Shown here: positions 6,359 through 18,325 of the stretch, one piece after another
How the letters are laid out: each line of letters opens with the position of its first letter
Position numbering within the stretch: position 1 is the first letter of the stretch
Assembly (NCBI GenBank): GCA_016125225.1
Contig: WGME01000018.1
Location: 248,001 to 312,000, forward strand
Length of the DNA stretch: 64,000 bases
From: a bacterium
Lineage (GTDB): Bacteria; Planctomycetota; Planctomycetia; Planctomycetales; Planctomycetaceae
Direction of reading: 5' to 3'
Position numbers and translations under genes: made by a program
The notes under the pieces: generated by a model
Databases searched by the model: none
What the model was told of the DNA's origin: nothing
What the model saw: the letters and a program-made list of their open reading frames with translations, nothing else

Positions 6359-7168
6359 TCAGTTGCTCGCACTTTTGCCTTTGAGCACGAGGTACTGTGC
6401 GACGAACTGATCCTGCTTCATCGGGAGGGTGGGGGTGATCTTGCCCCGCTCGAACATGCTGCGAGTCCCCCGATTCTGGGACCATTCGTCCGTGGAGATT
6501 TCGCCGTTCTTGTCCTTGTCGACCAGGGAAAAGAAATACTTCGCCTGTCGGACTTCGGTGGAATCGCTTTCCGTAGGTGGAGCCACAGGGGACGCTGGTG
6601 ACGCGGGCTTCTCCGACGCCGCAACACTGGTGGGAGCCAGGGTCTGGGGCGTTGCCGTCACTGTCACCGCAGCGACATTGGAATCATTCAGTTCACGCGC
6701 GGTGAGAAAGCCGTCACCATTACGATCCAGCTGCAGAAACTCTGACAGCTTGGCACGTTCCCATTCGTACAGACCGATCTGGTTGTCGCCATTCTGATCG
6801 AACGGGGCGAACTTGGTGGGCAACCCCTGAACAACCTTGGGTTTGGGGGCAGGCCGACTTGATCCGCGCGAGCCACGGCTATCGCCCCCTCCACGGGATG
6901 AATTTTCCGACCGTTGCTGCATGCCTCGGATGAAGGCGTCACGGGACACTTCTCGGCTCGCGTCCAGACCTGCTTCTTTGAACCGTTCTTTCATTCGGTC
7001 ATCGAGCCGACTCAATTCTTCCCCCGCGATACGACCATCATTATCGCGATCAAGGTAACGGAAGAAACGTTCCTCACGACTTTCATTCTGTGCCCAGGCA
7101 GTCGACTTCACCTGCGCCACGCCCGTACCGATAAAGACTGCGCAGACTACCAAGTTTCGCCAGAGCAT
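6359..7168 (-). CDS. Exported EF-hand calcium-binding protein
   Basis: A 269-residue exported protein with a signal peptide (LVVCAVFIGTGVAQVKSTAWA) and four EF-hand-type loops: DRDNDGRIAGEE, DQNGDNQIGLYE, DRNGDGFLTARE and DKDKNGEISTDE. All keep the 1-3-5-12 acidic or oxygen ligands, so calcium binding is likely. Between the first and second loops is a Ser/Arg/Gly-rich linker (SSRGGGDSRGSRGSSR). Such proteins are abundant in planctomycetes, and their partners are mostly unknown. The gene is divergent from the secretin-like gene at 7438, sharing a 269-bp intergenic region, so a link to the secretion operon is conceivable but not shown. Confidence 0.85.
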   Translation of the reverse strand: MLWRNLVVCAVFIGTGVAQVKSTAWAQNESREERFFRYLDRDNDGRIAGEELSRLDDRMKERFKEAGLDASREVSRDAFIRGMQQRSENSSRGGGDSRGSRGSSRPAPKPKVVQGLPTKFAPFDQNGDNQIGLYEWERAKLSEFLQLDRNGDGFLTARELNDSNVAAVTVTATPQTLAPTSVAASEKPASPASPVAPPTESDSTEVRQAKYFFSLVDKDKNGEISTDEWSQNRGTRSMFERGKITPTLPMKQDQFVAQYLVLKGKSASN

Positions 7169-7437: not shown

Positions 7438-10400
7438 ATGCGACAGGTTTCTCAAGTAGTTGGTGCCAGCATCCTTCTTCTTGCCATGTGCGCGGTGAAC
7501 GTGAACGCACAGCCACCGGGCGGATTTGGCGGCCGGGGTGGTCCGGGTGGATCGGGCGGATTTGGTGGGCCGGGAGGTGGTCGCGGAGGATTTGGGGGCC
7601 GAGGCGGATTCGGAGACCCTTCCAACTTCCTGTTCAATATCCGTGACGAAAACTTCCGTGGTCAATTGGAACTGAGCGACGGCCAGAACGAAGAACTCGA
7701 TGAGCTGCGGTCCGAAATCCAGAACTATTTCGGTGAACAATTCCGCAGTGGCATGCCGCCCAATCCGGAGGACATGCAGAAGCGGATGGCAGAATTTGAG
7801 TCGCGGGCTCTGAAGGTTCTCAACGACGATCAGCAGAAGATCTGGGAAAAGCGCAAAGCAGAAGTTGCCCAAGGGGGCAATGGCTCCGGCGATCGCAGCA
7901 GCTCTGCACCCTCCAGTGCTCCAGTTGCCACGACTCCCGTAAAGCGTGCTCCTCTACCCAACGAAGCCGCACCGGCAGGTGAGTCTGCCCAGGTCTCGTT
8001 CGGCCCTGCCACGACCGATCCTGCGGCTGGGGCTCGGGCCGACGCTGTCATGTCGTTCAATTTCCGCTATGCCCCTTGGGCCGATGTGCTGAAACTCTTC
8101 GCCGAAACAGCCGGACTGACACTCGATCTGAACGACACCCCCACCGGCACATTCAACTATTACGATGACGGCAGCTACACCGTCACCGAAGCCCTCGACA
8201 TTTTGAACGGGTACCTACTGCCCAAGGGTTACTGTCTGGTCCGCCGAGATCGGTTCCTTGTCTGCCTGAACATTGATGATCCGATTCCACCGAACATGAT
8301 CCCGGTGATTACGCCCGAGGAATTGCCCCATCGTGGCAAGAATGAACTGATCAGCCTGCTCATTCCGCTCGAAGATGTGGACGCCAAAGACGTCAGTGGT
8401 GAAGTGCAGCAGTTGCTGGGACCACAGGGGAAAGTCGCGGCCCTCGAAAAAACGAACTCGCTGTATGTGATGGATGTCGGCGCCAATGTCCGCCGTGTCT
8501 ATGACTTGCTGACCATCAGTGCGAACGTGATGTCGGGCGATACCGCGTTCAAATCCATTCCGCTGAAACACATCACCGCCGTCGATGCGGAACGGACAGT
8601 TCGCCGGTTGTTCGGGTTAAACCCGATGACCACAATCACCAGCAGCCCGACCACGCCGCAGTTCGGTGGGTTCAGCCCCTTCGGTGGCGGTGGCTTCGGT
8701 GGCCCGTTTGGTGGGGGCGGATTTGGTGGTCCCCCGGGATTCGGTGGATTCGACCGGGGGAGAGACAGTGGCAGCGGCAGTGACAGTCGCGATTCCCGCT
8801 CTTCGCGGTCATCGAGCACAAGCACCAGCAGTTCACAGCCCAAGTCTCCGTATGCTGACAAAATCTGGGTGACGGCCGATACCCGGACCAATCACCTGCT
8901 TATCACCGCACCGCCCCAATTGCTCCGCGTGGTCGAAAATGTAGTGACCTCGCTCGATACTGGGAAAGATGCTAACGGCAACGACATTATCAATTCGTCC
9001 GACCCGATCAGCATGAAGTCCTACACCGTGACCGGCAACAGCACCCAGATCGCGCAAACGCTGATGCTGTTGATGCCCGGCTTGTCGATCACCGATGACC
9101 CTACGTCCGGCCGCTTGTACATTCAGGCCACGGCGAAAGAGCATGAAGAGGTCAACAAGCAACTGCAGGAACTCAACGGGACCGGTAACAACTCCGTCGC
9201 CGTGCTGAACCTGTATCGCCTCGATCCGGTCGCGGCGGTCAACACACTCCGCAACCTGTTCATCAATGATGGTAGCCGAGCCCCCACCATCGAAGCCGAT
9301 TCCGCCGGCCGCCGCATCATGGTCCGGGGCACGCCTGACCAGGTATCGCAAGTGAAGGCGTTGCTGGCTGACCTGGGTGAACTGGGCGATGAAGGCACCG
9401 GCGAACCAACTCAACGCGGACCGATTCGTACCTACCCATTGGGTGGCCGCGACCCCTCGGAGTTTCTGCCGATCTTGCGGCAAATGTGGTCAGCCTCGGA
9501 ACCCAATCCAATCCGGATTGTGGTGCCGTCAGAAACCAGCCCGATCCGCGAACTGAAAGTGCCCTCCGATGCGCGGCTGGAAGAAACGTTGAAGCCGTCA
9601 GCGACTTCCCGCGGACGTGACACACGTTCTTCCGTGAATCCCATGCCGCTGGAGCAGCCGCAGACCCAATCGAAGCGGCCGGTCAGCTTCCGTTTTGCGG
9701 TTTCATCGACTTCGGATTTTCAGTCGACACCGATGGCTATGGAACAGGAATCGACCGAAATCTCGTCGAGCGAGCCGATGCAACCCGAGCCGGAGACCTT
9801 CGAAGATTTTCTGAAGTCGCTGGTGGAACCTTCCGCCCCCGCCGCAAAGCCGGCACAAGGTGAAATGGATGCACCGGGGAGCATGGAAGTCGAAACCCCC
9901 GTGGGCGTGACGGTCATCGGGAATGACCTAGTGCTGACCTCCGATGATGCTGCCGCTCTCGATCAGATGGAAGCCATGATCGAACAACTGGCCACCATGA
10001 TGCCGGTGAAGACCCGCTGGACCGTCTTCTACCTGCGATCGGCGGATGCCACTGAAACGGCTCAAATGCTCGAACGGCTCTTTCCGCAAAGTTCGGTGAC
10101 GACATCCACCCAGGCCAGCGACGGCATCCTCGGTTCCCTCGCGGGGGGATTGTCGACGCTGGGTCGTGGTATGATGTCTGCCACGGGCCTGAACACGCTC
10201 GGCGGCCAGACGTTGCGAATTGTGACCGATACCCGGGCCAATGCGTTGTTTGTGACCGGCCCGCACAACGTGGTCTCGGAAGTCGAGCAGATGCTGCGAT
10301 TGCTCGATGCCTCGGAACTCCCGTCATCACTCCGCGACCGCGTTCCCCGCAGCATTCCGGTGAATCATGCCGATGTCGATGAAGTGGCGGCCATCGTTCA

Positions 10401-11031
10401 GAACGTGTTTCAAGAGGAAATGAATCCCCCGGAGCAGGCGAACAACAATCGTCAGCAGCAACAACGCGGCGGCGGCTTCAACCCGCTCGCCATGATGATG
10501 GGAGCCGCTCAACAACCGACGCGCGGCCAACCCCGATTGTCGGTGGGTGTCGATCGCCAGACCAGCCATTTGATCGTTTCGTGCAATGACAGCCTGTTTC
10601 AGCAGGTTGAAGACCTGGTGAAGGACATCGATAACCGTGCTCAGGCCGCAACTCCGGTCGTGCGGATCATGCCCCTCACGACCGCCGACCCGGCGATTAT
10701 CTCGACCACCCTGTCATCGCTGATGCCCAAGGTGACGGTGAGTTCGACCCGCGGCAGCCGGCCTCAACCGTCGCAGCCAAGTTCGAATAACAGCAGCGGG
10801 AATTCCAGCCGGGGTGGCGACAACAATAACAGCGACCAGTCAAATCAGGCCGGGCAAGACTTCTTCCGCCAGATGATGGAAGAACGGGTGCGGCAACGCG
10901 GCGGAGATTCGGGGGGTGGCTTCGGCGGCCGGGGCGGCTTTGGTGGCAGTGGTTTCGGTGGACGCGGTAGTGGCGGTCCCGGAGGGGGCGGATTTGGTGG
11001 ACCGGGAGGATTTTCTCCAAGTCCGCGCTAA
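7438..11031 (+). CDS. Secretin N-domain stack protein (GspD-like) without a visible pore domain
   Basis: A 1197-residue exported protein heading the type II secretion-like operon. The frame opens at 7243, but the ATG at 7438 begins a signal peptide (MRQVSQVVGASILLLAM...NAQ). A Gly/Phe-rich segment (about 27-57) and a helical Spy-like segment (about 60-145) precede an STN/N0-like domain beginning near residue 203 (FNFRYAPWADVLKLFAE). About six or seven secretin N1-type modules follow, recognisable by phrases such as TLMLLMPGLSITDDP, AAVNTLRNLF, TAQMLERLFP and DEVAAIVQNVF. The C-terminus is a Gly-rich tail (GGFGGRGGFGG). I find no C-terminal secretin beta-barrel signature (no VPxLGxLPxxGxLF-like segment). 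It is probably a periplasmic ring or scaffold of the machine; whether it forms a channel is doubtful. Confidence 0.8.
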   Translation: MRQVSQVVGASILLLAMCAVNVNAQPPGGFGGRGGPGGSGGFGGPGGGRGGFGGRGGFGDPSNFLFNIRDENFRGQLELSDGQNEELDELRSEIQNYFGEQFRSGMPPNPEDMQKRMAEFESRALKVLNDDQQKIWEKRKAEVAQGGNGSGDRSSSAPSSAPVATTPVKRAPLPNEAAPAGESAQVSFGPATTDPAAGARADAVMSFNFRYAPWADVLKLFAETAGLTLDLNDTPTGTFNYYDDGSYTVTEALDILNGYLLPKGYCLVRRDRFLVCLNIDDPIPPNMIPVITPEELPHRGKNELISLLIPLEDVDAKDVSGEVQQLLGPQGKVAALEKTNSLYVMDVGANVRRVYDLLTISANVMSGDTAFKSIPLKHITAVDAERTVRRLFGLNPMTTITSSPTTPQFGGFSPFGGGGFGGPFGGGGFGGPPGFGGFDRGRDSGSGSDSRDSRSSRSSSTSTSSSQPKSPYADKIWVTADTRTNHLLITAPPQLLRVVENVVTSLDTGKDANGNDIINSSDPISMKSYTVTGNSTQIAQTLMLLMPGLSITDDPTSGRLYIQATAKEHEEVNKQLQELNGTGNNSVAVLNLYRLDPVAAVNTLRNLFINDGSRAPTIEADSAGRRIMVRGTPDQVSQVKALLADLGELGDEGTGEPTQRGPIRTYPLGGRDPSEFLPILRQMWSASEPNPIRIVVPSETSPIRELKVPSDARLEETLKPSATSRGRDTRSSVNPMPLEQPQTQSKRPVSFRFAVSSTSDFQSTPMAMEQESTEISSSEPMQPEPETFEDFLKSLVEPSAPAAKPAQGEMDAPGSMEVETPVGVTVIGNDLVLTSDDAAALDQMEAMIEQLATMMPVKTRWTVFYLRSADATETAQMLERLFPQSSVTTSTQASDGILGSLAGGLSTLGRGMMSATGLNTLGGQTLRIVTDTRANALFVTGPHNVVSEVEQMLRLLDASELPSSLRDRVPRSIPVNHADVDEVAAIVQNVFQEEMNPPEQANNNRQQQQRGGGFNPLAMMMGAAQQPTRGQPRLSVGVDRQTSHLIVSCNDSLFQQVEDLVKDIDNRAQAATPVVRIMPLTTADPAIISTTLSSLMPKVTVSSTRGSRPQPSQPSSNNSSGNSSRGGDNNNSDQSNQAGQDFFRQMMEERVRQRGGDSGGGFGGRGGFGGSGFGGRGSGGPGGGGFGGPGGFSPSPR

Positions 11032-11157: not shown

Positions 11158-12837
11158 ATGGATATTGGCAACGTTCTCGTTCGACATGGCGCCATTTCTC
11201 GCGAACAGTTGCAGACACTGCCAGCAGCGGGAACGACACGTATTGATCGGGCCCTGATCGACCGGGGACTGCTGACCGAAGAAGCAGCACTCCGGGCTTT
11301 CGCGGCAGAACTCGGCATGAAATATGTCGAGGTGAAGAAAGAGCAGATCGACCGCGAACTGCTCGTCCAGTTCCCGACAACCGCCGTCTTCAAGCATTCG
11401 ATCCTGCCGCTCAAACGCCGTAATGGCAGCGTGGTGGTCGCCTGCAGCGATCCCTTCAATCTCGAAGCTTTGGAAGAACTCTCCGCAGTCAGTGGGTTCC
11501 ACTTGGAACCGGTACTGGCGAACCGCCTCGAAGTCGTCGAAATGATCAAAGATCAGCTCGGCGTGGGGGGCGACACGCTCAACGAACTGGTCGCACAACG
11601 GGCCGCCGATGGCATTGAACTACTCGGCGACGAAATTCGTGACGATGGCGACATGGAGCAGATGGCCGAAGCGGCTTCGGTCATCAAGCTGGTCAACGAA
11701 TTGCTGGTGGAGGCCTGTGAACAGGGGGCCAGCGACGTTCACATCGAACCGCAGGAACGCGGCCTGATTATCCGCTACCGCGTCGATGGTGTATTGCGCG
11801 TGCAGCCGGTTCCCGAATCGATTTCCAGCTTCTTTGCAGCTATTGTGACGCGGCTGAAAATCATGTCGCACCTTAACATCGCAGAAAAACGAGTCCCGCA
11901 GGACGGCCGCATCAAGCTGAAGGTTTCCGGCCGCGAAATCGACGTGCGTGTGTCGATCATCCCCATGATCTACGGCGAAGGGGTGGTCCTGCGTCTGCTC
12001 GACAAAGGCCGCATGGTTTTCAATCTCGCCAACATGGGCATGCCTCCCGACCTGTCGAAAACCTTCAACGATCTCATCAGCCTGCCGCACGGTATCGTGC
12101 TGGTCACCGGGCCTACCGGCTCCGGAAAAAGTACCACGCTGTACAGCGCCTTGAGTGAAATCAAAGACCCGTCGATCAAGATCATCACGGTGGAAGACCC
12201 CGTGGAATATCAGATGGGGGGCATCAGCCAGATTCAGGTCCATTCGAAAGTCGGGCTGACTTTTGCCGCCGGTTTGCGGAGCATTTTGCGTCATGACCCT
12301 GATGTGATTCTGATCGGGGAAATTCGAGACGGTGAAACGGCCCAGAGCGCGATTCAGGCCTCGCTGACCGGACACCTCGTCTTCAGCACGCTCCACACGA
12401 ACGATGCCCCTGGCGCGTTTACACGTCTGGTCGATATGGGAGTCGAACCCTATCTGGTGGCGAGTACCGTGGAGGGGGTGTTGGCCCAACGATTGGTGCG
12501 TGTGCTGTGCAAGAAGTGTAAGCAGCCCTACACGCCGGAGCCGGGCAGTTTGCCGGAAGATTTTCCGATCCAGAATCCCGAGATGTTGTACCGTGCGGTG
12601 GGTTGCCGCGAATGCCGAGACACCGGCTATTCCGGTCGAAAGGCGATCTTCGAGTTGCTGCGGACCGACCACACCATCGGCAAGCTGTGCGTGGCCCGCG
12701 CAAGTACCGGCGAACTTCGCGAATACGCCCTGTCGCAAGGCATGAGCACCCTGCGACTCTCCGGCTTCTCGCGAGTCCTCGAAGGCCTCACCAGCCTGGA
12801 TGAAGTGCTACGAATTACCAAGATGGATGTCAGCTAG
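11158..12837 (+). CDS. gspE: Type II secretion / type IV pilus assembly ATPase (GspE/PilB family)
   Basis: A 559-residue cytoplasmic hexameric ATPase that powers pseudopilus assembly. An N-terminal MshEN/T2SSE_N domain spans about residues 35-150. The catalytic part has the Walker A motif GPTGSGKST (318-326), an Asp box (TVEDPVEYQ), the Walker B-like VILIGEIRD (about 383-391) and the His box ([12 protein letters not shown]). A zinc-binding tetracysteine (C451, C454, C483, C486) is intact, as in GspE and PilB. Length and motif order match functional family members. The start ATG is in the context CAGCATGTGTCATGG. It sits directly upstream of gspF in a colinear operon. Confidence 0.95.
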
Positions 12838-12928: not shown

Positions 12929-14137
12929 ATGCCCGACTACTCCTACATCGCCCGTGAACTTTCTGGTCAGCAGACGGTGGGTGTGCTGACAGCAGGGACA
13001 GAGCGCGAAGCGATCGGGCAGTTGGCCGCACGCAATCTCTTTCCGCTCGAAATCAAAATCGCGGAAACGCACAAAGCGCAAGAGGCCAGCAAGAAGGGAC
13101 GGGTCGGCGGCCGGGTGCTGGCGGTGTTTTACACTCAGCTTTCCGATCTGCTGAAAGCCGGCGTGCCGTTGCTGCGTTCGCTGACCATTCTCGAAAAGCA
13201 AGCCCCGAATGCGACGTTGAAAGCCGTCGTCTCGGAAATCCGGGCCGATGTCGCCGATGGCACCCGGTTGGCGGAAGCGCTCCGCAAGCATCCGCAAATC
13301 TTTTCCGACCTAGTGATCAGCATGATTCGCGCCGGGGAAGAAGGGAGCTTCCTGGAAGATTCCTTAACCCGCATCGCCGACTTCACGGAACATCAGGAAG
13401 ACATGAAGGGCCGCGTGATCGGGGCGATGATTTACCCCGTGATTCTGCTGACCCTGGGCACCATCATCGTCACGGTGATGATGGTTAAATTCGTGCCGCA
13501 GTTCGAACCCACCTTTGCCGCCTTGCGTGATGCTGGGGAACTTCCCTGGGCGACGACGGCACTCGTCGGTTTCAGCGATCTCATTCGGTATTACGGTCTG
13601 TTCGTGCTCATCGGGCTGATTGCACTCGGTTATTTTTTGAATCGGTATCTCAAGTCCGATTCGGGCCGGTACAATTTTGACCGCGTGTGGTTAAAACTGT
13701 ATGGCGTTGGATCGGTCACGAAAACGCTGGGGATTGCCCGGTTTTGCCGTGTGCTGGGAACGCTGCTGCGGAACGGGGTGCCGTTGCTGGCCTCGTTACG
13801 GATCGCGAAAGATGCCGTCGGCAACCGCGTGCTGACCGAAGCGATTGCCGAAGCGGCCGAGCATGTTTCCTCGGGGAAATCTCTGGCCAGGCCGCTGGGT
13901 GACTGCAAGCATTTTCCGAATGATGTGATTGAAATGATCGCCGTCGGTGAAGAAGCCAACAACCTGGAGCAGGTGCTGATCAACGTGGCAGACAAAATGG
14001 AACGCACGACCAATCGTCAACTCGACTTGGTGGTCCGACTGTTGGAACCGGCGATGCTGGTGGTGATGGCGGGGGTGATTCTGTTCGTCGTCGTCGCGTT
14101 GATGCTCCCCATTTTGAAGACCTCACAAATCGCCTGA
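12929..14137 (+). CDS. gspF: Type II secretion / pilus inner-membrane platform protein (GspF/PilC family)
   Basis: A 402-residue polytopic inner-membrane protein that couples the ATPase to pseudopilin assembly. The N-terminal segment MPDYSYIARELSGQQ is typical. Two T2SSF four-helix domains are evident, one beginning FYTQLSDLLKAGVPLLRSL (about residue 70) and the second FCRVLGTLLRNGVPLLASL (about 272). Transmembrane helices lie near 170-190 (VILLTLGTIIVTVMMVKFV), 225-242 and 375-397. Length matches the family. Its start codon is preceded by the CAACCCT array instead of a normal ribosome-binding site, which may reduce or vary its translation relative to gspE and gspG. Confidence 0.95.
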   Translation: MPDYSYIARELSGQQTVGVLTAGTEREAIGQLAARNLFPLEIKIAETHKAQEASKKGRVGGRVLAVFYTQLSDLLKAGVPLLRSLTILEKQAPNATLKAVVSEIRADVADGTRLAEALRKHPQIFSDLVISMIRAGEEGSFLEDSLTRIADFTEHQEDMKGRVIGAMIYPVILLTLGTIIVTVMMVKFVPQFEPTFAALRDAGELPWATTALVGFSDLIRYYGLFVLIGLIALGYFLNRYLKSDSGRYNFDRVWLKLYGVGSVTKTLGIARFCRVLGTLLRNGVPLLASLRIAKDAVGNRVLTEAIAEAAEHVSSGKSLARPLGDCKHFPNDVIEMIAVGEEANNLEQVLINVADKMERTTNRQLDLVVRLLEPAMLVVMAGVILFVVVALMLPILKTSQIA

Positions 14138-14227: not shown

Positions 14228-14692
14228 ATGTTGTCTCGCCGAACCCCGTCCCGCCGCCGTCGTGCCGGTTTTACGCTCACCGAAGTTCTGCTGGTGCTCG
14301 CCATCATCGGCGTGATTGCCGCGATGGTCATTCCCAACCTGATTGGTTCGCAACAGAAGGCGAACGTGCAGGCCACCAAGAACAGCATCACGGCCTTTGA
14401 GAACATTGTGAAAAATTATGCGGTGGCGAATGCCGGGACCTTCCCTGAAGGTGGCCGTGACGAAGTCATCACCATGCTGCTGAATCCGCCGGTGGATGAG
14501 GACGGCAAAACCGTCGCCCCCTACATGGAACAATCGCCGAAAGACGCCTGGGGTCAGTCGCTGTACTACGAATATCCGACGAACAAAGTGCAGAATGGCA
14601 TCAAACCCGCCATCTGGTCTTCAGGACAGAACAAGCAAAATGAAGACGGCAACGGCGATGATGTGAACAACTGGCAGGACACCGGGAAATAG
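14228..14692 (+). CDS. gspG: Major pseudopilin (GspG-like)
   Basis: A 154-residue type II secretion major pseudopilin. The class III leader ends RRRRAG, and the mature protein would begin FTLTEVLLVLAIIGVI with Glu at position +5, the hallmark of pilins processed by prepilin peptidase. The C-terminal part (DAWGQSLYYEYPTN, then IWSSGQNKQNEDGNGDD) matches the GspG calcium-binding fold seen in members with DxWGxPYxY. An AAAAGGA ribosome-binding site lies 9 bases before the ATG. It is expected to polymerise into the periplasmic pseudopilus assembled by GspE and GspF. Confidence 0.93.
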   Translation: MLSRRTPSRRRRAGFTLTEVLLVLAIIGVIAAMVIPNLIGSQQKANVQATKNSITAFENIVKNYAVANAGTFPEGGRDEVITMLLNPPVDEDGKTVAPYMEQSPKDAWGQSLYYEYPTNKVQNGIKPAIWSSGQNKQNEDGNGDDVNNWQDTGK

Positions 14693-14752: not shown

Positions 14753-15364
14753 ATGAGCCGTCCGAGTTGCCAGCGACGTCGCGGTTACACGCTGGTCGAG
14801 TTGTTACTCGCCCTGGCGCTGCTGGGGGTGTTGGCGAGCGTGACCGTGCCTTCGGCGATGCGGCTCTTCTTCCGGTCGCAATTGACCGGGGCCATGGAAG
14901 ACGTGCGGGCTCAACTGGCCGGCACGCGCGTTCGGGCGATTGAATCGGGGCTGGTGTACCAGTTTCGCTTCGAACCCGAGGGACGGTACTACATGAGCGT
15001 ACCGTTCGAGCGCGAAATTGAAGCCAGCGACCCGAACGCCACCGGCACCGGAGCCACCACCGGCATCGGCAAGTTCACCCGCTTTGCTGGCCAGCTACCG
15101 GACGGTTTTCGCTTCGTCGACTGCTGCTCCGGTTCGGGGGCGATTGGCGGGGAACTCGATGCCGCTGTCTTCGGCGAACTTCCCAATGCCGATGAACTCG
15201 CTAATGTCTCCTGGTCGCCTCCCATCCTGTTTTATGCGGATGGTTCCGCGGGAGATGCGGCGTTCGAACTGGTGGATGGCCAGGCCCAGTACGTGAAGCT
15301 GCAGGTTCGCGGCCTCACGGGGGCCACCTCGGTCAGCCTGATTCAAGACCGGGGGGGCTCATGA
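14753..15364 (+). CDS. Minor pseudopilin (GspH-like)
   Basis: A 203-residue prepilin with the cleavage motif RRG then YTLVELLLALALLGVLASV, with Glu at +5. The globular part is longer than that of the major pseudopilin and rich in beta-strand and Gly/Ala/Ser loops, as in GspH minor pseudopilins. Its stop overlaps the next start by four bases (ATGA at 15361-15364), implying translational coupling. The H assignment rests on operon position and length, as sequence identity among minor pseudopilins is low. Confidence 0.85.
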   Translation: MSRPSCQRRRGYTLVELLLALALLGVLASVTVPSAMRLFFRSQLTGAMEDVRAQLAGTRVRAIESGLVYQFRFEPEGRYYMSVPFEREIEASDPNATGTGATTGIGKFTRFAGQLPDGFRFVDCCSGSGAIGGELDAAVFGELPNADELANVSWSPPILFYADGSAGDAAFELVDGQAQYVKLQVRGLTGATSVSLIQDRGGS

Positions 15365-15828
15365 TCGCCATTCGATCTCCCCGACTAAGCTCGCGGCACA
15401 CCACCGGCTTCACGTTGCTGGAAGTGGTGCTGTCTCTCGCGATTTTCTTTACGTCCATGGCAGTGCTGTCGCAGATCAACTGGAATGCCACGCGGGCCTC
15501 GGTACAGGCTCAACTCACTACACAAGCCTTGCTCCGCTGCGAGGCCAAATTGCAGGAAATTGTCGCCGGTGCAGAACCCCTCAGCGATCAGCAGAATGTC
15601 CCATTCGATGACAACGCCGAATGGACCTGGTCGCTGCAGACAGCCCCCACGGTGATGCCAGAACTCCTGGTGATCCGCGTAACCGTCTCCCGAGTCTCAG
15701 ACAGCAGCCTGGGCAATGCCAGCGTCTCGCTGGAACGCTGGATGCGAGACCCTGAGGTGCTGATTGAAGCGGCTGAAGAACAGGCCGCCATTGAAGCCGA
15801 CCAGGCGAACAATGCGGGAGTCCCATGA
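15361..15828 (+). CDS. Minor pseudopilin (GspI-like)
   Basis: A 155-residue prepilin. The leader ends TTG and the mature N-terminus would be FTLLEVVLSLAIFFTSMAVL, with Glu at +5. The compact C-terminal domain (AQLTTQALLRCEAKLQEI) resembles GspI, which nucleates the pseudopilus tip with J and K. ATGA overlaps couple it to both neighbouring genes. The letter assignment follows the conserved H-I-J-K order. Confidence 0.85.
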   Translation: MIAIRSPRLSSRHTTGFTLLEVVLSLAIFFTSMAVLSQINWNATRASVQAQLTTQALLRCEAKLQEIVAGAEPLSDQQNVPFDDNAEWTWSLQTAPTVMPELLVIRVTVSRVSDSSLGNASVSLERWMRDPEVLIEAAEEQAAIEADQANNAGVP

Positions 15829-16703
15829 TGCGTCTCCTAAGGCTAAGCCGCTACCGCGTTTCGTATCCACGACAAAACCACAGTCGCCGGGGTTTGTCTC
15901 TGCTGGAAATGCTCCTCGCCGTCGGCCTGTCGCTGGTTTTATTGACCGGCATCTATACGGCACTCGATGTCTCGAACCGTCAGGCCACCGTCGGTAAAGC
16001 CGAGATGCAGCGGTTGCAACTCGCGCGGGCCATTTTGCGACGGATGGAAATGGATCTACGGGCGACCATGTTTGATGTCGATTCCGCGGTCAGCGATACA
16101 GGCACCGATGCGAACCTGAATGCCAACGTCACCACCATCGTCAGCGATACCGATAGTGATACCGAATGGACCGGCAGCCTGGGCATCCGTGGCAGCAGTA
16201 GCGAACTCTGGATCGATCTCTCGCATATCAGCCGCGAACTCGAATTCACGGCCGCCACAGCACAAAGCGATATGCAAACGGTCGCTTATTTCTTATCGAG
16301 CAACTCGTCCTCAAACGATTCCACGGGCCCCTATTCCGCTTATTCGATCTCAGAGAGTGACGATTCGACTTCCAGTTCGAACAGTCCGGGATTGGCCCGC
16401 AGTCAGGGGGAACGCTCGGTATTAAGAGCATTGAATGAGTCGAGCACCGGGAGTGTCCTGCCCGGCCCCACGCAAGTCCTTGCCCCCGAGGTCGATGCCC
16501 TGCAGTTCCGTTACTTCGATGGCCTCGCCTGGTACGAAGAGTGGGACAGTTCGACCATTGGAGATTTACCACGTGCCGTGGAAGTGATCATTGGCATCGA
16601 CAGCGGCGGCACCATGAAAACCAGTGTCAGTTCGCCCCGCAGCTTCCGGATGGTCGTCGCCATTCCTGCGAGTGATCCCCTCCTCGAAGAGGAGACCTAC
16701 TGA
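15825..16703 (+). CDS. Minor pseudopilin (GspJ-like)
   Basis: A 292-residue prepilin. The leader ends SRRG and the mature protein begins LSLLEMLLAVGLSLVLLTGI, keeping Glu at +5. Family traits are QRLQLARAILRRMEMDLRA after the helix and a C-terminal strand region (RYFDGLAWYEEWDSS) typical of GspJ. A Ser-rich disordered insert lies near residues 165-190. The gene overlaps GspI by four bases and the GspK-like gene by one (TGATG). Confidence 0.87.
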   Translation: MMRLLRLSRYRVSYPRQNHSRRGLSLLEMLLAVGLSLVLLTGIYTALDVSNRQATVGKAEMQRLQLARAILRRMEMDLRATMFDVDSAVSDTGTDANLNANVTTIVSDTDSDTEWTGSLGIRGSSSELWIDLSHISRELEFTAATAQSDMQTVAYFLSSNSSSNDSTGPYSAYSISESDDSTSSSNSPGLARSQGERSVLRALNESSTGSVLPGPTQVLAPEVDALQFRYFDGLAWYEEWDSSTIGDLPRAVEVIIGIDSGGTMKTSVSSPRSFRMVVAIPASDPLLEEETY

Positions 16704-18325
16704 TGCACGATCGCCAATCCCGTTTATCGAAACCCTCTCGTGCGAACTCACGGCGTGGCACCATACTGGTTGTGGTGCTGGTGGTTGTGGTGCTGCTCAC
16801 ATTGACGGCGGCCCACTATTCTTCCTGGGTGACCACCGAATACGAAGCCGCCGCCATCACCACGGCCGATGTGCAGGCCCGCATGCTGGCCGATTCCGGG
16901 GCGGACTATGTCGCGGCCTTGGTGGCGAATCGGGCTGACTCGCAATCGAACAATTTCCAGCACAATCCCGATCTGTTTCTGGGCATCAATGTGGTGGAAT
17001 CGCAGTTTGACCGTGCACGGGGCCGGTTCACCATTATCGCCCCCCTCGAACAGGATGAAACGGCCACGCACATCCGTTACGGTCTGATCGACGAGTCGGC
17101 GAAGCTGAATCTGAATCTGCTCGACCAGCTTGAGTTGGACGATGAGGATTCACGCAATCTGCTGATGGGTCTGCCCGGCATGACCGAGGACATTGCCGAC
17201 GCCATTCGCGACTGGGTCGATAGCGATGATACCTCGCGCGAATACGGAGCCGAATCGGAATACTACGAAACGCTGTCCCCTGCCTACTCCGCGAAGAACG
17301 GTCCGCTGGAAACCATCGATGAACTGCTGCTGGTGAAAGGGGTCACGCCCGAACTGCTCTATGGGGAAGACGCCAACCGGAACGGCCTGCTCGATCCGAA
17401 TGAAGATGATGGCGAAGCCTCGCCGCCGTATGACAATGCCGACGGCATCCTGCAGCATGGCTGGATCGGTTATCTCACGGTCTACAGCCGTGAAATCAAT
17501 CTTGCTTCCGATGGGTCCCCAAAAATCGATCTCAACAATGGCATTCTCACCGACCTGTACGATCAACTCGCCGAAGCCTTCGATGATGATGTCGCCGCGT
17601 TTGTGGTGGCCTATCGCATGAGTGGGCCGCTCGACCAAAACCCCAACCAACCGGCCCAACAAGCGGCAAACAACAATCAGCCCAATCCTGCAGCCCCCGG
17701 TGCGGGGGCCGTCACCCGGGGCAATCCACCGCAAGATCTTTCCGGCGGAGCCAAGTTCCAGATCGCATCGATCTTTGAACTCCTCGGCGAATTCTCCCGA
17801 ACGACACCAAAGTACGTTAACGGTGCGAATAACGCTCAATTGGATACTCCCTGGCCCAACAAGAATGATGTTGCCAAGATTCTCCCTGAACTTCTCGATA
17901 AGACGACGCTCTCTGCTGACCCCTATCTGGAAGGACGGATCAACATCAACCAGGCGCGACGCGAAGTGCTCGTGGGTCTCCCCAGCATGACCGAAGAGAT
18001 CGTCGATGCCATCCTTGCGTCCCAGCCGGTCGACCAGGATGGCCAACCTGTCACCGATGTCATCGAATCGCACAGCACGACCGGCTGGCTTTATACCGAG
18101 GGCTTGGTCAGCATCTGGACGATGCGGGAAATTGACCCGTTCATCACTGCTCACGGCGATGTTTATCGTGCTCAGATCCTCGGCTTCTTTGATGGCGGCG
18201 GCCCGGTCAGCCGTATTGAAGTCATCGTCGATGGCACCGAGATTCCGCCACGTGTGGTGTTCCACCGCGATCTGGATGCCCTAGGCCGGGGTTACTCCCG
18301 CCAGCAGATCTCCCCACAGCAATAG
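16703..18325 (+). CDS. Minor pseudopilin / tip protein (GspK-like)
   Basis: A 540-residue, unusually large pseudopilin. The leader ends SRRG, followed by TILVVVLVVVVLLTLTA; the +5 Glu of other pilins is absent, as is normal for GspK, which caps the pseudopilus tip. Helix-hairpin-helix-like segments are visible (LLMGLPGMTEDIADAIRDW and VLVGLPSMTEEIVDAIL), with an Asp/Asn-rich possible calcium site (EDANRNGLLDPNEDDGE). An Asn/Gln/Pro-rich linker occupies about residues 310-340. It is the last gene of the operon. No GspL, GspM or GspC gene follows. Confidence 0.87.
   Translation: MHDRQSRLSKPSRANSRRGTILVVVLVVVVLLTLTAAHYSSWVTTEYEAAAITTADVQARMLADSGADYVAALVANRADSQSNNFQHNPDLFLGINVVESQFDRARGRFTIIAPLEQDETATHIRYGLIDESAKLNLNLLDQLELDDEDSRNLLMGLPGMTEDIADAIRDWVDSDDTSREYGAESEYYETLSPAYSAKNGPLETIDELLLVKGVTPELLYGEDANRNGLLDPNEDDGEASPPYDNADGILQHGWIGYLTVYSREINLASDGSPKIDLNNGILTDLYDQLAEAFDDDVAAFVVAYRMSGPLDQNPNQPAQQAANNNQPNPAAPGAGAVTRGNPPQDLSGGAKFQIASIFELLGEFSRTTPKYVNGANNAQLDTPWPNKNDVAKILPELLDKTTLSADPYLEGRININQARREVLVGLPSMTEEIVDAILASQPVDQDGQPVTDVIESHSTTGWLYTEGLVSIWTMREIDPFITAHGDVYRAQILGFFDGGGPVSRIEVIVDGTEIPPRVVFHRDLDALGRGYSRQQISPQQ

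Follow-up and report, generated by a model that had tools for sequence, protein, structure and literature searches.

The window, a stretch of 64,000 nucleotides from a member of the Planctomycetaceae (assembly GCA_016125225.1, contig WGME01000018.1, positions 248,001 to 312,000), carries the type II secretion system (T2SS) operon gspE-K, headed by a gene for a GspD-like protein that lacks a pore domain. The open reading frame of this poreless gene has no internal stop and encodes 1197 amino acids. The features of the locus are given below with the method or profile match on which each assignment is based.

7438-11031, + strand: poreless GspD-like protein, 1197 aa, first gene of the T2SS operon (Pfam, AlphaFold2, pore HMM)
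7438-7509, + strand: probable signal peptide, residues 1-24, ending in NVNA before Q (by eye)
7627-7869, + strand: helical region, residues 64-144, LTxxQ-like by eye (AlphaFold2)
8050-8271, + strand: N0 domain, residues 205-278 (AlphaFold2, Foldseek)
8347-8526, + strand: N-module 1, residues 304-363 (N-module HMM, AlphaFold2)
8545-8955, + strand: N-module 2 with a long Gly-rich loop, residues 370-506 (N-module HMM, AlphaFold2)
9007-9174, + strand: N-module 3, residues 524-579 (N-module HMM, AlphaFold2)
9193-9372, + strand: N-module 4, residues 586-645 (N-module HMM, AlphaFold2)
9424-9999, + strand: N-module 5 with a long disordered insertion, residues 663-854 (AlphaFold2 alone; absent from the HMM stretches)
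10021-10311, + strand: N-module 6, residues 862-958 (Pfam, N-module HMM, AlphaFold2)
10345-10650, + strand: N-module 7, residues 970-1071 (N-module HMM, AlphaFold2)
10690-11028, + strand: half module and disordered Gly/Ser/Asn-rich tail at the place expected for the pore (N-module HMM, AlphaFold2, pore HMM)
11158-12837, + strand: gspE, ATPase (PF00437, E 1e-133; MshEN)
12929-14137, + strand: gspF, platform protein (PF00482, E 1e-61)
14228-14692, + strand: gspG, major pseudopilin (PF08334)
14753-15364, + strand: gspH-like minor pseudopilin (N_methyl only, plus position)
15361-15828, + strand: gspI-like minor pseudopilin (weak PF02501, E 0.024, plus position)
15825-16703, + strand: gspJ, minor pseudopilin (PF11612, E 9e-8)
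16703-18325, + strand: gspK, minor pseudopilin (PF21687, E 3e-18)

The T2SS components E, F, and G were thus found together with the minor pseudopilins, with H and I assigned from weak matches and position. An EF-hand protein is encoded divergently from the poreless gene (6359-7168, - strand), and EF-hand-like proteins, recognized by eye, hold the same divergent position in L013 and L014.

The N0 domain and N1-type ring modules typical of GspD were detected in the window protein by Pfam, AlphaFold2, and Foldseek. Secretin_N (PF03958) matched over six stretches (E 1e-53), and a locally built N-module HMM matched over seven, corresponding to modules 1-4, 6, and 7 and the half module. The AlphaFold2 model contained N0, seven complete beta-alpha-beta-beta-alpha modules, the half module, and a disordered end of 102 residues (1096-1197). 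The models are monomers of low global confidence, with a mean pLDDT of 55 and pTM of 0.28 for the full protein, modeled from a 7-sequence alignment, and a mean pLDDT of 69 and pTM of 0.37 for a second model of residues 200-661. The top Foldseek matches of the full model in the PDB were T2SS secretin N-domains, e.g., XcpQ N0-N2 (E 8.5e-11), and residues 200-661 matched PulD (E 8.8e-12); the TM-scores were low, probably because the geometry between modules is not fixed. The initial annotation had described a signal peptide, a Gly-rich stretch, an STN/N0-like domain, about six or seven N1-type modules, and a Gly-rich tail. All of these were recovered, the first two by eye and the tail as the disordered end of the AlphaFold2 model, and the helical LTxxQ-like region was placed between the Gly-rich stretch and N0.

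The C-terminal secretin barrel, which the same annotation had called missing, was indeed not found. No match to Secretin (PF00263) was obtained by Pfam at E ≤ 1, and the NCBIfam GspD model TIGR02517 scored 158 bits, below its equivalog cutoff of 351 bits. A pore HMM was built from the PF00263 matches of the window's genome and related genomes, with one row left out for a stop codon, and run with filters off. It did not match the window protein and gave no match below E 1e-3 (Z=1) in any of the 50 intact poreless rows, which correspond to 38 unique proteins, as some loci hold the same gene twice; all of the pore-bearing positive controls (31/31) were matched. The C-terminal region was modeled as the half module and disorder with no barrel, and a hidden or divergent pore in the last 300 residues was ruled out by Pfam, AlphaFold2, and the pore HMM together. 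Homologues from six named contigs were 35-49% identical to the window protein with N0 and modules conserved, the nearest named relatives being Schlesneria MAGs (44-49%).

The possibility raised by the initial annotation that the machine uses a separate pore held in part. A pore-bearing GspD is encoded on another contig of the window's genome (L063:6923-11167), and this 1414-aa protein is a full GspD, not a pore-only one, comprising N0 and N-modules as well as the pore. Nine PF00263 matches were present in the genome; besides the full GspD, they comprise Tad-like secretins, one giant that combines TPR and secretin, a secretin of phage type, and short or weak matches. The search for an unlinked pore-only secretin returned the short matches L069 (323 aa) and L070 (299 aa), which have no T2SS genes nearby and were rejected, leaving the full GspD as the probable partner. 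L064 and L066 were rejected as partners as well, as they look like Tad secretins by their T2SS-T3SS_pil_N domain, also shared by L065, and by their TadE- or CpaE-like neighbors, recognized by eye.

Three further loci of the same genome were recorded. L072:9022-12186 (C37) encodes an orphan poreless paralog of 1054 aa with N0, five N-module stretches, and no adjoining T2SS genes, the N0 of which groups with one N0 of genome G012 (L177). L068:9545-12335 (C6) holds a 495-aa secretin gene overlapping a gene for a Zot/pI-type phage-assembly ATPase, an arrangement that resembles paired genes of filamentous phages, here within the genome of a planctomycete. L067:9534-14624 (C16) encodes a protein of 1696 aa in which TPR-like repeats and an STN-like stretch are combined with half of a secretin domain, the C-terminal one.

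L-like and M-like genes were found on a third contig (L144:8467-9978 and L144:10035-11807) through their relatedness to operon genes of relatives. Pfam matched the L-like protein weakly (PilM_2, E 1e-5; T2SSL, E 0.01), and GspM was not matched in the M-like protein, which has Ig-like (He_PIG) stretches, as does the M protein of L104; in place of GspC, this M-like protein of the window's genome could serve as the docking site of N0. Directly 3' of the pore GspD gene lies a gene for a lipoprotein-like protein (L063:11231-12103), an arrangement shared by most genomes. This protein is a possible pilotin, and the two such genes scanned gave no Pfam match.

In relatives, the parts scattered in the window's genome were found in one operon. 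Within the window's family, f1, the order poreless gene-E-F-G-H-I-J-K-L-M-pore GspD-lipoprotein lies on one contig in four genomes (G004, G015, G023, and G025), and G011 and G024 share this order, their first gene being truncated by the end of the contig. Some small pseudopilin genes were missed in relatives because the antisense frame was longer and the ORF caller was mechanical. The gspE gene follows within 2.5 kb downstream on the same strand in 22 of 36 unique intact poreless genes, a set from which two of the 38 were excluded for too little downstream sequence; the remaining 14 belong to non-f1 genomes or to genomes and MAGs with the poreless gene apart from gspE. In f4 (G044) and f6 (G041), the poreless gene comes after M, and G044 has the order M-poreless gene-pore GspD-lipoprotein with a gap of 187 bp between the two secretin genes. 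The placement of the poreless gene "at the secretin position" in the initial annotation therefore needs correction, since it starts the operon and the pore GspD gene ends it in most of f1, and the two adjoin in f4.

Known from family f3 only, a fusion joins both proteins in a single ORF that spans 2137-2328 aa and combines 11-12 N-modules with a pore (G038, G043, G047, G053, and G056). The poreless HMM matched the fused ORF at about residues 50-950 and the pore-GspD HMM at about 1080-2160, with one N0 in all. In L115, the first half matched the poreless HMM in one piece with 439 bits, and Pfam detected 10 Secretin_N stretches and one Secretin. The second half matches the pore-GspD HMM from position ~356-399 to the end (main piece, 490-815 bits), and this late start indicates that the second N0 is missing. 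The fused ORF comes after K-L-M in G043, G053, and G056 and after K and L in G038; in G047, no K, L, or M adjoins it. A second system in f4 has one-piece proteins of 3240 and 3269 aa that combine 30 modules with a single N0 and the pore.

The N0 domain was present in all unique intact poreless proteins (38/38). Intact unfused long pore GspDs numbered 23, i.e., the 24 unique intact unfused pore-bearing rows minus L163, a short second-system secretin of 882 aa. N0 was found in 15 of them, all from f1, and was absent from eight, namely, G036 (f1) and all seven from f4-f7. It follows for f4-f7 that a complete secretin arises only from the poreless and pore proteins as a pair. Among the 16 intact long pore GspDs of f1, 15 carry an N0 themselves, so that in this family the pore GspD might function unaided. 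In the N0 tree (76 sequences, 77 columns, with few resolved forks), the N0s of the f1 pore GspDs clustered in a starred group of their own (99/99), which excludes those of the poreless and the fused proteins.

Co-occurrence with the pseudopilin GspK was analyzed in 59 relatives with the window's GspK protein as the query, since PF03934 misses even this protein. GspK was present in 50 relatives, all of which matched P0001 at E ≤ 1e-17, and in the nine others, the P0001 match was absent or reached only E ≥ 7e-7. The nine comprise G002 (64% complete), G039, and seven genomes of f2, and as seven of nine belong to one family, the independent events are few and the co-occurrence tracks lineage. The P0001 match in G012 (79% complete) was the paralog class rather than the operon protein, and in f3 it was mostly the fused protein. 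GspC (PF11356) was detected in none of the 59 relatives nor in the window's genome, and the Escherichia coli and Caulobacter controls were positive.

The N-module array is much longer in some f1 relatives, where the N-module HMM counted 27 modules in G030, 31 in G025 (L119), 32 in G020, and 43 in G022, the last in a gene cut by the contig end. These giant poreless arrays lie at L119:6742-14553, L120:5771-13843, L121:2048-9406, and L122:8502-17663. Pfam detected 24 Secretin_N stretches in the G025 poreless protein and 25 in the G044 one-piece protein. Modules within one giant protein shared a median identity of 23-27%, and near-identical pairs (93-100%) occurred in three of the four giants (G025, G020, and G022; L119, L120, and L122), which points to recent tandem duplication.

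Taken together, we favor, with a probability of roughly 0.6, the reading that the T2SS secretin comes in two pieces and that the window protein, as one of them, forms the stack of rings on the inner-membrane side of an elongated conduit. As the poreless and pore genes stand side by side or are fused in relatives, the two products probably make up one extra-long tube across the envelope. The poreless protein would be exported to the periplasm, where N0 and the seven N-modules would oligomerize into a ring stack on the side of the machine that faces the inner membrane. We infer that the N-rings of the separately encoded full GspD, the bearer of the outer-membrane pore, would prolong this stack, perhaps with the assistance of the lipoprotein encoded by the adjoining gene, and that the GspE-K pseudopilus would operate within the lengthened conduit. 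The separate pore and the periplasmic tube, offered as alternatives in the initial annotation, probably hold together. The tube is strongly but indirectly backed by operon order, the fusions, and the division of N0 and pore in f4-f7; its rings, their stacking, and the link to an enlarged periplasm are putative. Against the two-piece reading, the pore GspD and L/M genes of the window's genome lie on other contigs, no GspC was detected by PF11356 through which N0 could meet the inner membrane, and the presence of N0 on both f1 proteins is the chief weakness of the tube for the window itself.

The poreless protein could instead be a connector or gate that replaces GspC, bridges components of the inner membrane and the full GspD's N0, and selects substrates. 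The lack of GspC by PF11356 across all relatives with positive controls, the N0 kept by the pore GspD of the window's family, and operon membership are consistent with such a role, which we nevertheless regard as rather unlikely. The poreless protein carries whole ring modules, no obvious membrane anchor besides the signal peptide was seen by eye, the f3 fusion sets the poreless part in line with the pore GspD, and in f4-f7 the poreless protein carries the sole N0 of the pair.

A role outside secretion, e.g., as an envelope scaffold or matrix protein merely located in the operon, would fit the long Gly-rich loops, the orphan paralog L072 without T2SS neighbors, and the genomes with the poreless gene apart from gspE. 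It is improbable in view of the operon, the adjacency to the pore GspD gene, the fusion, and the co-occurrence with GspK. We give even less credence to mixed rings, in which poreless and pore proteins of the same domain family would stand side by side and the former would tune pore size or gating, as the fusion is end to end, N0 and pore are divided between the two in f4-f7, and array lengths vary freely, up to 31 modules in the G025 poreless protein (L119). Decay or truncation of a secretin gene, or an artifact of the assembly, to which the C-terminal end inside a module in the AlphaFold2 model might point, is refuted by the 38 unique intact poreless proteins including the window's, none with a pore, and by the homologues of 35-49% identity that keep N0 and modules, and its likelihood is close to nil.

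Secretins are treated as single proteins, with ring stack and pore together. The window protein resembles the T2SS secretin GspD (PulD/XcpQ/EpsD) in its N0 and N-module folds and its E-to-K operon partners, but it lacks PF00263, has seven complete N-modules instead of three, and is accompanied by a second, pore-bearing GspD elsewhere in the genome. A split secretin has a precedent in the mitochondrial miT2SS, where separate GspDN1-3 proteins and a truncated GspD are described in the available text, with GspD and GspDN1 linked by yeast two-hybrid (PMC8134430). Compared by domain content, both systems place secretin N-modules and pore on different polypeptides; the miT2SS has single or half modules and a bare pore (PMC8134430), whereas the window protein is an array of N0 and seven modules from a bacterial system, the partner of which retains its own N-array. 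A lengthened N-ring stack is also found in PilQ of Thermus thermophilus, with six stacked N-rings that, in the accessible part of the report, span most of the wide periplasm according to its authors; PilQ differs as one polypeptide with its pore, fewer rings, and a function in the type IV pilus and DNA uptake (PMC5745081). The Tad alignment protein RcpC, as excerpted, is likewise a separate periplasmic conduit, dodecameric and docking on the secretin, yet anchored in the inner membrane, the likeness being one of description only (PMC12307814). Separated from the pore domain, the N-domain of XcpQ still forms a hexamer of dimers by self-assembly, according to the portion of the paper available (PMC5646246).

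In the titles and opening abstract lines of the papers listed by searches of the open-access literature, neither a split or poreless secretin in planctomycetes nor a poreless partner with N0 and seven to 43 modules beside a full GspD was described. To our knowledge, the molecular parts of the enlarged planctomycete periplasm and of the crateriform pits are not known. With a rise of ~3 nm per secretin ring, the conduit would gain ~20 nm from seven additional rings and >100 nm from 40. We suggest, with low confidence, that planctomycete T2SS secretins are adjustable in length, such that tandem N-modules on the poreless partner (seven here and 27-43 in relatives) yield trans-periplasmic tubes of some 14 to 40+ rings that join both membranes across the enlarged periplasm and could underlie the crateriform pits of Planctopirus limnophila. 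For this species, ~104 crateriform complexes per cell are described in the available text, and some of them, if not all, are tied to the inner membrane and keep it near the wall (PMC5394234); that they contain the poreless/pore T2SS machine is a guess. A secretin split common to several planctomycete families, with independent tandem growth of the poreless part, would give a natural series for relating ring number to envelope width, and the poreless/pore T2SS pair is a concrete candidate part for the enlarged periplasm and the crateriform pits.
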